A DNA stretch of 37,741 nucleotides from Flavobacteriales bacterium (GTDB lineage: Bacteria > Bacteroidota > Bacteroidia > Flavobacteriales_D > Sanyastnellaceae). The stretch spans positions 1 through 37,741 of the forward strand of contig JADFAK010000107.1 of NCBI GenBank assembly GCA_015665315.1, written 5' to 3'. Positions 29,862 through 32,928 of the stretch are shown here, in pieces. The notes below the pieces were generated by a model. That model ran no database searches. It was not told the DNA's origin and saw only the letters and a program-made list of their open reading frames with translations. The position numbers and the translations under genes were made by a program. The stretch's first letter is position 1. Each line of letters opens with the position of its first letter.

Positions 29862-29869
29862 TAGTTTTG
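29862..29869 (+). promoter_or_regulatory. Promoter -7 box of recX, nearly touching the start codon
   Basis: TAGTTTTG, exact match to TAnnTTTG, ends 6 bases before the ATG at 29876. If used, the mRNA leader would be about 2-3 bases. No -33 TTTG is visible at the right distance. Confidence 0.45.
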
Positions 29870-29875
29870 GGAACC

Positions 29876-30328
29876 ATGCAAGAAGAACTGGCCGAAAGAC
29901 TTAGAAGGTGGTGTGCCTACCAAGAGCGCTGCTCCTACCAGCTCAATGAAAAAATGCGCCTGATGGAACTCACCGATGAGCAAAAAGCGAAATTTACCAA
30001 AATGCTTATTGAGGAGAAGTTCATTGATGATCAACGGTTTGCCCATTCTTTCGTGAGCGGTAAGATCAGAATAAAAAAATGGGGACGAATAAAGATTCGA
30101 ATAGAGCTTGGCAGACTGAAAATAGCGAGTACTTTGATCGCAGAAGCCTTGGACAGTTTTGATGAAAATGAGTACGACGCGATGGTCATCAGTGCGGCGG
30201 AGAAAAAATCTGAATTACTCAAAGAGCCTGACAAATTTATCAAAACAGGAAAAATCGCTCAGTTCTTGGTAGCACGCGGTATTGAACAATCACAAGCTTG
30301 GCATGCAGCCAAATTAGTCGTTGAATAG
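29876..30328 (+). CDS. recX: Regulatory protein RecX
   Basis: Small modulator that binds RecA filaments and limits recombination and SOS activity. The product has 150 residues from ATG 29876, typical for RecX; a TTG at 29867 lies within the -7 box. The helical three-repeat pattern is visible: RRWCAYQERCSYQLNEKM, then LIEEKFIDDQRFAHSFVSGKI-RIKKWGRIKIRIEL, the strongest family signature, then KIAQFLVARGIEQSQAWHAAK. recA is not adjacent. prfB follows after 39 bases with its own promoter box. Confidence 0.92.
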   Translation: MQEELAERLRRWCAYQERCSYQLNEKMRLMELTDEQKAKFTKMLIEEKFIDDQRFAHSFVSGKIRIKKWGRIKIRIELGRLKIASTLIAEALDSFDENEYDAMVISAAEKKSELLKEPDKFIKTGKIAQFLVARGIEQSQAWHAAKLVVE

Positions 30329-30354: not shown

Positions 30355-30362
30355 TACATTTG
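30355..30362 (+). promoter_or_regulatory. Promoter -7 box of prfB, nearly touching the start codon
   Basis: TACATTTG, exact match to TAnnTTTG, ends 5 bases before the ATG at 30368, predicting a leader of roughly 0-3 bases. No -33 TTTG is visible. Confidence 0.45.
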
Positions 30363-30367
30363 CAGCT

Positions 30368-31466
30368 ATGTTTACACAAGACCAATACAACAAAATGTTG
30401 AAGAGACTAACCGCCCTGAGGGAGTATCTTTGACGTCTCTACAAAACTCTTACAAATAGCCGAAGACGAGAAGCAGACGCAAGACCCTGACTTTTGGAAT
30501 GATCCAAAAAAGGCAGAGCTAGTCATGAAACAAATCCGAAACAAGAAAGTCTGGACCGACGCCTATGCGAAGGCCGAGGCCCATGTTGAAGATGTCAAAG
30601 TTTTATACGAATTCTACAAAGAGGGTGAAGCAGACGCGGAAGAAGTCATGCAAAACTTCTTGGTGGCTCAACAGTCCATAGAAGATCTGGAATTCAAGAA
30701 CATGCTTTCGTCCGAAGAAGATGCTTTGAACGCAGTAATTCAAATTACGGCCGGGGCTGGTGGAACAGAGAGTTGTGACTGGGCTCGCATGCTCATGCGT
30801 ATGTACATGATGTATGCCGAGAAAAGTGGGTTTAAAATCCGCGAATTGGATTACCAAGAAGGTGATGTTGCTGGCATTAAACAAGTTACCCTAGAATTTG
30901 AAGGAGATTTCGCCTTTGGCATGCTCAAAGGGGAAAACGGTGTACATCGCTTGGTGCGCATCTCTCCCTTTGATTCCAATGCCAAGCGCCACACTTCCTT
31001 TGTCTCAGTTTACGTATACCCACTCGTTGATGACACTATAGAGATCGACGTAAATCCTGGAGATATTTCTTGGGAAACGTTTAGGTCAGGTGGTGCCGGC
31101 GGACAAAACGTAAATAAAGTTGAAACAGGTGTTCGTTTGCGCCATGCGCCTACAGGGATCATCATTGACAATACCGAGACCCGCAGTCAGCTCGGAAACA
31201 AAGAGAAGGCTATGCAGCTATTAAAGTCTCAACTTTATGAGATGGAAATTGCAAAAAGGAATGAAGCACGCGCGGAAATTGAAGCCGATAAGAAGAAGAT
31301 AGAATGGGGCTCACAAATTCGCAGTTATGTGCTTCAACCGTATAAACTTGTGAAAGATGTTCGCACAGGACATGAATCGAGCAACACCGACGCCGTTTTG
31401 GATGGCGAAATTGACGGCTTCCTAAAGGCCTACTTAATGGGCGAAGGAAAGGCTAGTGAATCATGA
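30368..31466 (+). CDS. prfB: Peptide chain release factor 2, expressed by programmed +1 frameshift
   Basis: RF2 reads UGA and UAA and triggers peptide release. The coding sequence is 30368-30430 joined to 30432-31466, 365 codons before the stop, the same length as E. coli RF2. The first 21 codons ([21 protein letters not shown]) end in CTT followed by an in-frame TGA at 30431-30433; skipping one base continues [14 protein letters not shown] in the +1 frame. The SPF stop-codon recognition tripeptide ([16 protein letters not shown]) and the catalytic GGQ ([14 protein letters not shown]) are both present. Reading only the long open frame would miss the N-terminal 50 residues or so. Confidence 0.97.
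30419..30434 (+). promoter_or_regulatory. prfB programmed +1 frameshift site
   Basis: The sequence AGGGAGTATCTTTGAC matches the E. coli prfB site in all but one base: internal Shine-Dalgarno AGGGAG (30419-30424), a 3-base spacer, slippery CTT (30428-30430), stop TGA (30431-30433) and the stop-weakening C (30434). When RF2 is scarce, termination is slow and the ribosome shifts to GAC, so RF2 controls its own synthesis. Confidence 0.95.
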
Positions 31467-31533: not shown

Positions 31534-32928
31534 ATGGAATACCGAATAGAGAAGGATACAATAGGAGAAGTTCAAGTACCTGCAGATAAATACTGGGGAC
31601 CCCAAACAGAGCGTTCGCGCAACAACTTTAAAATTGGTCAGCCTGGCAGTATGCCAATTGAAATTATACATGCATTTGCTTTCCTCAAGAAGGCGGCAGC
31701 TCACGCAAATTGTGATCTAAACGCCCTGACGAATGAAAAACGTGATTTGATTTCAACCGTTTGCGATGAAATAATCACTGGCAAGCTTGACGATCAATTC
31801 CCGCTGGTAATTTGGCAGACAGGTTCTGGCACTCAGAGCAATATGAACGTGAATGAAGTGATTGCCAACCGAGGTCATGTTGTTCAAGGTGGTAGCCTTT
31901 TAGACAAGCCCAAGGCATTGCATCCCAATGATGACGTCAATAAATCGCAGTCATCCAATGACACTTTCCCAACGGGTATGCACATTGCGTGTTACAAAAT
32001 GATTGTTGAAACCACTATTCCGGGAGTTGAACAACTTAGAAATACATTGCAAGCCAAGGCAATTGAATTTGACCATGTTGTGAAAATTGGACGTACGCAC
32101 CTAATGGACGCAACTCCTCTGACCCTTGGTCAAGAATTCTCTGGTTATGTTTCACAATTGGATCATGGACTCAAAGCGCTGCGCAATACTTTGGCACATC
32201 TTTCTGAATTGGCTTTGGGAGGAACTGCAGTTGGAACTGGCATCAATACCCCAAAAGGGTACGCCGAATTAGTAGCACAAAAAATCGCTGAATTCACGGG
32301 CCTCCCATTTGTTTCTGCAGAAAATAAATTTGAAGCTCTCGCAGCTCACGATGCCTTTGTCGAAACACATGGCGCGTTGAAGCAACTTGCCGTTTCCCTG
32401 AATAAAATTGGCAATGACATTCGCATGATGGCTTCTGGCCCAAGGTCCGGAATTGGCGAATTGATTATACCAGCCAATGAACCTGGAAGCTCTATTATGC
32501 CAGGAAAAGTTAATCCAACTCAATGCGAAGCACTTACCATGGTATGTGCTCAAGTTATTGGCAACGATGTGGCCATTACCATTGGTGGTGCCCAAGGACA
32601 TTATGAGCTCAACGTATTCAAGCCAGTCATGGCATCGAACCTACTTCAATCGGCACGTTTGATAGGTGATGCTTGTGTTTCGTTTGACGAAAATTGTGCA
32701 CAGGGAATCGAACCGAATGCCGCGCGAATCGATGAATTGGTCAATAATTCTCTTATGCTCGTCACCGCTCTGAATACCAAGATTGGATATTACAAAGCTG
32801 CCGAGATTGCTGGAAAGGCTCATGCTGAGGGTACAACTTTAAAAGCCGCCGCCCTTGCGCTGAACTATCTGAGTGAAGAGGAATACGACGCTTGGGTAGT
32901 GCCCGAAAATATGGTTGGTCGCTCTTAG
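31534..32928 (+). CDS. fumC: Class II fumarate hydratase
   Basis: Interconverts fumarate and malate in the TCA cycle. The product has 464 residues, typical of FumC. Signatures: [35 protein letters not shown], the substrate site with [15 protein letters not shown] and [17 protein letters not shown], and the fumarase/aspartase signature [15 protein letters not shown] with the catalytic Ser near 319-320. The fumarase-type SGTQSNMN and ELNVFKP separate it from aspartase. It is preceded by an AT-rich 67-base gap without a clear -7 box. Its stop interlocks with the convergent methyltransferase gene (4 bp). Confidence 0.96.

Follow-up and report, generated by a model that had tools for sequence, protein, structure and literature searches.

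How does an internal Shine-Dalgarno (SD) sequence serve translation in a genome that hardly uses SD sequences at its start codons? The question is raised by the prfB gene of a Flavobacteriales bacterium (assembly GCA_015665315.1), which lies in a stretch of 37,741 nucleotides (hereafter the window). A sequence-only reading of the window had described a near-canonical prfB frameshift signal one base away from that of E. coli. It had claimed that almost no start codon has an SD and that the anti-SD is present in 16S rRNA, and it had proposed the site as a natural reporter of anti-SD access: if the internal SD works, the anti-SD must be reachable in elongation and not at initiation, or the level of frameshifting is set in another way.

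Bacteroidia keep the prfB frameshift and its SD despite a hidden anti-SD (523 of 726 genomes), and prfB pairing requires the 16S tail to leave the platform (PMC8710568, in part). Both the prfB element and the anti-SD question are already known (PMC8710568, PMC12421855, PMC13245932, all in part), as are changed anti-SDs in Flavobacteriia (PMC10783764, PMC6107199, both in part). Evidence for anti-SD access in elongation on Bacteroidia ribosomes comes so far from one model species. In sets of close relatives within the order, the frameshift, the SDs of prfB and rpsU, and the 16S core change independently of one another, and this makes the question testable.

Materials and Methods

SD usage was sampled in the window and 15 further stretches of 20 kb, about 338 kb of the 4.6 Mb genome. 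Genes were called as ORFs of at least 120 aa starting at the first ATG, a rule under which single starts may be wrong. The family set comprised 114 genomes; 104 had an RF2 match, and the 5' end was readable in 100 (four matches were partial). All 59 frameshift-less N-termini were placed in the alignment used.

16S tails were retrieved by exact pattern from 11 of the 114 family genomes and, at a completeness of at least 97, from 32 of 145 genomes across the order, a union of 36 genomes; prfB was read in 34 of them (all except G003 and G230). The tails come from assembled 16S genes only, mostly one per genome, and a more sensitive 16S search gained no further genome. A set of named genomes was built from 50 named loci out of 80, and 17 of its 49 genomes gave a 16S tail. 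Citations marked "in part" refer to the part of each paper that was available.

Results

Anatomy of the prfB Site

The features of the locus are listed in Table 1. Positions 30419-30434 read AGG GAG TAT CTT TGA C, with UGA as codon 22 (30431-30433). One base separates this site from the E. coli site AGGGGGTATCTTTGAC (E. coli letters from PMC8710568, in part), and the near-canonical signal is borne out in its letters and coordinates. The RF2 body begins with GAC at 30432 and stops at 31464-31466. Its protein scores 480.7 bits against the NCBIfam prfB profile TIGR00020 (cut-off 370), and both Pfam domains, PCRF and RF-1, are present. Because the +1 frame is closed by the TGA at 30417-30419 and, read downstream of it, has no ATG, GTG, or TTG before 30525, full-length RF2 requires the shift.

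Table 1. Coordinates of prfB features in the window.
Feature	Position	Strand	Basis or remark
Promoter-like TACATTTG (TAnnTTTG)	30355..30362	+	5 nt ahead of prfB ATG
prfB ORF0, 21 codons and in-frame UGA	30368..30433	+	sequence read
TGA of +1 frame, blocks any upstream RF2-frame start	30417..30419	+	sequence read
Internal SD-like AGGGAG, codons 18-19 Arg-Glu	30419..30424	+	pairs with host 16S tail at -8.4 kcal/mol at best
Spacer codon TAT, E-site position at shift	30425..30427	+	sequence read
Slippery CTT, stop TGA, then C	30428..30434	+	sequence read
prfB ORF1, RF2 body of 344 aa, +1 frame	30432..31466	+	TIGR00020, PCRF, and RF-1 matches

A genome search found two genes with an RF-1 domain, prfB and one other. 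The other gene carries a PAT-type motif (PATESQGRVHTS) compared to SPF in the prfB of the window; the PAT type (PxT) is the RF1 motif, and the second gene reads like RF1. The prfB of the window is the single RF2 gene found in the genome. It is flanked by a RecX-like gene (29867-30328), whose top NCBIfam matches are RecX models under their cut-offs and whose Pfam RecX_HTH2 match is over its cut-off, and by a class II fumarase gene (31534-32928).

UGA terminates 49 of the 213 genes called in the window and the 15 sampled stretches, compared to 7% of genes in F. johnsoniae (PMC12421855, in part). Given this higher use of UGA, demand for RF2 may be higher in this genome.

The box ahead of prfB matches TAnnTTTG, which we take to be the Bacteroidota -7 consensus. 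Because it ends 5 nt before the ATG, the prfB mRNA is probably leaderless or nearly so. The same motif lies 4-7 nt ahead of the prfB ATG in 12 of the 41 frameshift-bearing loci of the family (genera g1, g2, g4, g5, g15, and g16), and TAnnTTYG lies 20-36 nt ahead of it in 22; in the remaining 7, no promoter-like box was found within 45 nt. The short gap in those 12 loci suggests that some members of the family, too, transcribe prfB without a leader.

Start Codons and the 16S Tail

SD sequences are not enriched before start codons. An SD 4-mer occurs in 7.1% of SD windows and 10.7% of mock windows for the 28 genes of the window alone, and in 5.6% of SD windows compared to 9.1% of mock windows further upstream for the 198 genes of the window plus 300 kb. 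The same script applied to 49 kb of E. coli (40 genes) gave 57.5% and 2.5%, respectively. An A-rich stretch at about -11 to -14 precedes the start codons of the sampled genes. The genome has the 16S tail GGAAUACCUCCUUU, with an intact CCUCC core, and its bS21 has Tyr at position 54, a residue linked to anti-SD sequestration together with the bS18/bS6 pocket. Thus, the claims that start codons have almost no SD and that the anti-SD is present both hold, and abundant good SDs before most genes, which would have spoken against the sequence-only reading, are absent from the 198-gene sample. Starts without SD usage in these 198 genes together with a kept CCUCC are the pattern of anti-SD sequestration in Bacteroidia.

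A Weakened Copy of the Internal SD

The SD-like element of the window is complementary to the host anti-SD, though weakly. It is the fourth weakest of the 41 family sites (-8.4 kcal/mol, compared to -13.5 kcal/mol for AGGGGG in the sister species), because of one base change that also turns Gly into Glu. Optimal pairing lies one base out of register; an in-register alternative with a one-base bulge reaches -8.0 kcal/mol. Even so, of 1000 synonymous recodings only 0.9% match its pairing with the 16S tail, and the observed site beats the other 99.1%.

Codon Choice at Codons 18-19

Among the 100 prfB 5' ends read in the family, 41 bear the frameshift (14 genera) and 59 do not. The 41 sites carry the hexamers GGGAGG (22), AGGGGG (8), AGGAGG (7), AGAGGG (2), AGAGGA (1), and AGGGAG (1, the window); the same pairing element arises from three residue pairs at codons 18-19, Gly-Arg, Arg-Gly, and Arg-Arg. 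AGG is the rarest Arg codon of RF2 bodies (16 of 476), yet it encodes 45 of the 48 Arg residues at codons 18-19 of frameshift-bearing genes. Similarly, GGG accounts for 109 of 692 Gly residues in RF2 bodies compared to 32 of 33 at these two codons. In the 59 frameshift-less homologues, AGG encodes 6 of 22 Arg and GGG 13 of 49 Gly at the same positions.

Genus means of pairing energy are disjoint, ranging from -7.2 to -13.6 kcal/mol in the 14 frameshift-bearing genera and from -4.4 to -5.8 kcal/mol in 7 frameshift-less genera (one-sided rank test, p = 0.00014), with individual frameshift-less genes as low as -12.7 kcal/mol. The genera g13, g17, g18, g20, and g21 are frameshift-less, and genus g16 holds both states. 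G046 and G048 read CTA AGG GGG TAT CTT TGA C, and G047 reads CTC AGA GGC TAT CTC GAC; the amino acids are identical, and both the frameshift and the SD are lost in G047. Because codon bias exceeds what the residues require, the energies are disjoint, and G047 lost the SD together with the shift, the SD bases are selected as nucleic acid and relax upon loss of the shift.

16S Core and prfB SD Across the Order

Among the 34 genomes of the order with both a 16S tail and a prfB reading, all 11 with an SD-bearing frameshift site keep CCUCC. In the other 23, the core is changed in 13, and CCUCC stands without an SD-bearing prfB in 10. Genomes with CCUCC and no prfB SD include those of the Crocinitomicaceae-like f3, G043, and G231. 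One of the changed genomes, G115, combines an SD-less frameshift site with UCUCC. The frameshift-less genomes comprise 10 with CCUCC and 12 with changed cores: UCUCC in G053, G119-G123, G141, G151, and G152, ACUCC in G099 and G108, and UCUCU in G126. Brumimicrobium is among the changed-core genera. In G141 and G152 the change is not an assembly slip, because two rrn copies agree in each. The UCUCC and ACUCC cores weaken pairing rather than abolish it, through G-U pairs or a register shift (AGGGGGUAU pairs at -8.8 to -10.9 compared to -13.5 kcal/mol).

The association is significant by Fisher's exact test when relatedness is ignored (p = 0.0018 for the 34 genomes), and p is 0.0049 with G228 counted as SD-less, its AAGGGA pairing at only -5.4 kcal/mol. 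Counted by genus, one-sided p is 0.013 or 0.022, g25 being scored as changed in spite of the CCUCC in G125. The named set includes, with CCUCC kept, four genomes with AGGAGG in prfB, three with an SD-less frameshift, and two without a frameshift; six Chryseobacterium genomes have UCUCA, and two Brumimicrobium genomes were already in the order set. Pooled without these two, CCUCC is present in 15 of 15 SD-bearing genomes compared to 15 of 34 others (p = 0.00011, relatedness ignored). On a tree built from 106 protein columns, the 16S core changed about four separate times, never on an SD-bearing prfB background. A phylogeny-aware paired sign test was not significant (median p of 1), with too few informative pairs.

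SD-less frameshift sites were found in G114 and G115 (AACCGC TAT CTT TGA; loci L346 and L290). Sites with AGGCAC or AGGCAA, also without SD, occur in prfB of Bizionia, Formosa, Wocania, and others; CCUCC is kept in three of these.

The SD of rpsU

The rpsU gene has an extended SD (below -13 kcal/mol) in about 80% of Flavobacteriales (PMC9976891, in part). The rpsU of the genome (L201) pairs at -4.3 kcal/mol, short of this threshold. Of the 70 family genomes whose rpsU was read, 8 have a strong SD there: 7 members of genus g11, and G047. Elsewhere in the order, 28 genomes yielded a single case, G227; the start in G123 was misread. New here is that the prfB SD persists although rpsU is without a strong SD, both in this genome and in most of the relatives read. 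Since the prfB SD is kept in genomes without an rpsU SD, the two SDs are uncoupled. No matching SD was found in rpsU of changed-core genomes, where rpsU was read.

G115 encodes two different bS21-like proteins (L314 and L315). In the changed-core genera g18, g20, and g21, bS21 had seemed to have a truncated C-terminus, but this proved to be an artefact of alignments that end early; the full proteins read in these genera (G123 and G126 lay outside this reading) have 62-68 aa and keep the aromatic residue.

Discussion

The site in the window is, in all probability, an autoregulatory +1 programmed frameshift of prfB. When RF2 is scarce, peptidyl-tRNA-Leu would slip from CUU to UUU, and reading would continue at GAC into RF2; when RF2 is plentiful, termination would occur at UGA. 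The internal SD would pair during elongation with CCUCC of the 16S tail, which would be hidden at initiation. The sequences show the anatomy of the site, the need for the shift, the single RF2 gene found, and the selection on the SD bases; the slippage itself we infer. With AGGGAG at -8.4 kcal/mol and AGGGGG at -13.5 kcal/mol, SD help is expected to be weaker here than in the sister species, and this species may shift less efficiently. The proposal that the anti-SD is reachable in elongation and not at initiation agrees with the selection on SD bases; it is not a new idea, being in print and tested in F. johnsoniae. As a reporter of anti-SD access, the locus has value as part of a comparison, while its own weakened copy is not the best reporter.

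That the SD-like bases are a by-product of a conserved Leu-Arg-Gly-Tyr-Leu peptide is scarcely credible. The peptide is conserved in frameshift-less genes too, but there other codons encode it, and in frameshift-bearing genes the residues vary where the pairing stays. Moreover, when one representative for each of 14 genera was recoded synonymously, the observed energy was attained in only 0 to 2.3% of the recodings. The alignment of prfB 5' ends that the sequence-only reading had proposed thus revealed more than amino-acid constraint: the 41 frameshift-bearing genes are biased at the SD-like bases and the 59 frameshift-less genes are not, and unequal codon use in the two groups rules out an origin in codon or peptide constraint for the family. 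The internal SD of prfB is kept by selection beyond the amino acids it encodes. An assembly error in place of a true AGGGGG is very unlikely as the source of the one-base difference from the sister; AGGGAG is unique among the 41 family sites and the genome is a draft of 219 contigs, but the remainder of the site and the prfB gene are intact, with the reading frame as expected.

More weight belongs to the possibility, which we consider unlikely but serious, that the shift proceeds without SD-antiSD pairing, a long pause at UGA and the slip on CUU-U being sufficient and AGGGAG a decaying remnant. The SD in the window is weaker than that of the sister by 5 kcal/mol, genus g2 is weaker still (AGAGGG or AGAGGA), and SD-less sites are known in G114, G115, and Flavobacteriaceae. 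In F. johnsoniae, Naeem et al. 2024 reportedly found about 7% frameshifting, raised by a bS21 mutation; SD-less Winogradskyella sites are said to work as well as the native one there, and the shift is said to occur mostly without SD pairing. Because such sites reportedly work and one persists in G115, the SD is not strictly needed for the shift. Against a general decay, 37 of the 41 family sites pair at -11.4 kcal/mol or lower, with pairing preserved through both synonymous and residue changes, and the site in the window is still among the best 0.9% of its synonymous recodings. We retain SD-assisted frameshifting as the preferred reading.

The association between prfB SD and 16S core fits SD-antiSD pairing in elongation, but it is not significant in the phylogeny-aware test. 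Something besides the prfB SD also keeps CCUCC, because ten CCUCC genomes have neither the shift nor a strong rpsU SD, as read. Candidates are 30S assembly, other genes, and time; a role of the 16S tail in subunit biogenesis or initiation has been described (PMC8710568, in part). A more speculative proposal, which we hold to be rather improbable, is that, in this order, the anti-SD has one regular client left, the internal SD of prfB: pairing in elongation only would keep CCUCC, and once the shift is lost or becomes SD-independent the core would be free to change to UCUCC, ACUCC, or UCUCU. If true, a single pair of codons in a single gene would hold the most famous sequence of the ribosome in place. 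Our literature search, with subscription journals largely outside it, found no report of a prfB-SD/16S-core association beyond Weeksellaceae.

Several genomes offer natural controls. This genome has a prfB SD and CCUCC without an rpsU SD; G053, G099, G108, and Brumimicrobium have no shift and a changed core; G115 has an SD-less shift and a changed core; and G047, compared to G046 and G048, represents synonymous loss within one genus.

Compared to known systems, the site resembles E. coli prfB in its in-frame UGA, CUU slip codon, UAU spacer, C after the stop, SD at equal distance, and RF2 in the +1 frame. It differs in having AGGGAG instead of AGGGGG and in a host without SD usage at starts; unlike in E. 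coli, pairing between AGGGGG sites and the host 16S tail (AAUACCUCC) can run on into the UAU codon. As in F. johnsoniae, whose prfB site is AGGAGGUAUCUUUGAC, the same element faces a Bacteroidia ribosome whose anti-SD is hidden (PMC8710568, in part). F. johnsoniae has a perfect AGGAGG in prfB and a strong rpsU SD according to the literature (available in part), whereas this genome has neither; frameshifting in F. johnsoniae is described as low (cited in PMC12421855, in part). Weeksellaceae such as Chryseobacterium provide the precedent for a changed anti-SD in company with a lost prfB frameshift (PMC8710568, in part). Their core is UCUCA, compared to UCUCC, ACUCC, and UCUCU in families elsewhere in the order, and the published Chryseobacterium rpsU (source available in part) has a matching SD, whereas the changed-core genomes read here are without one.
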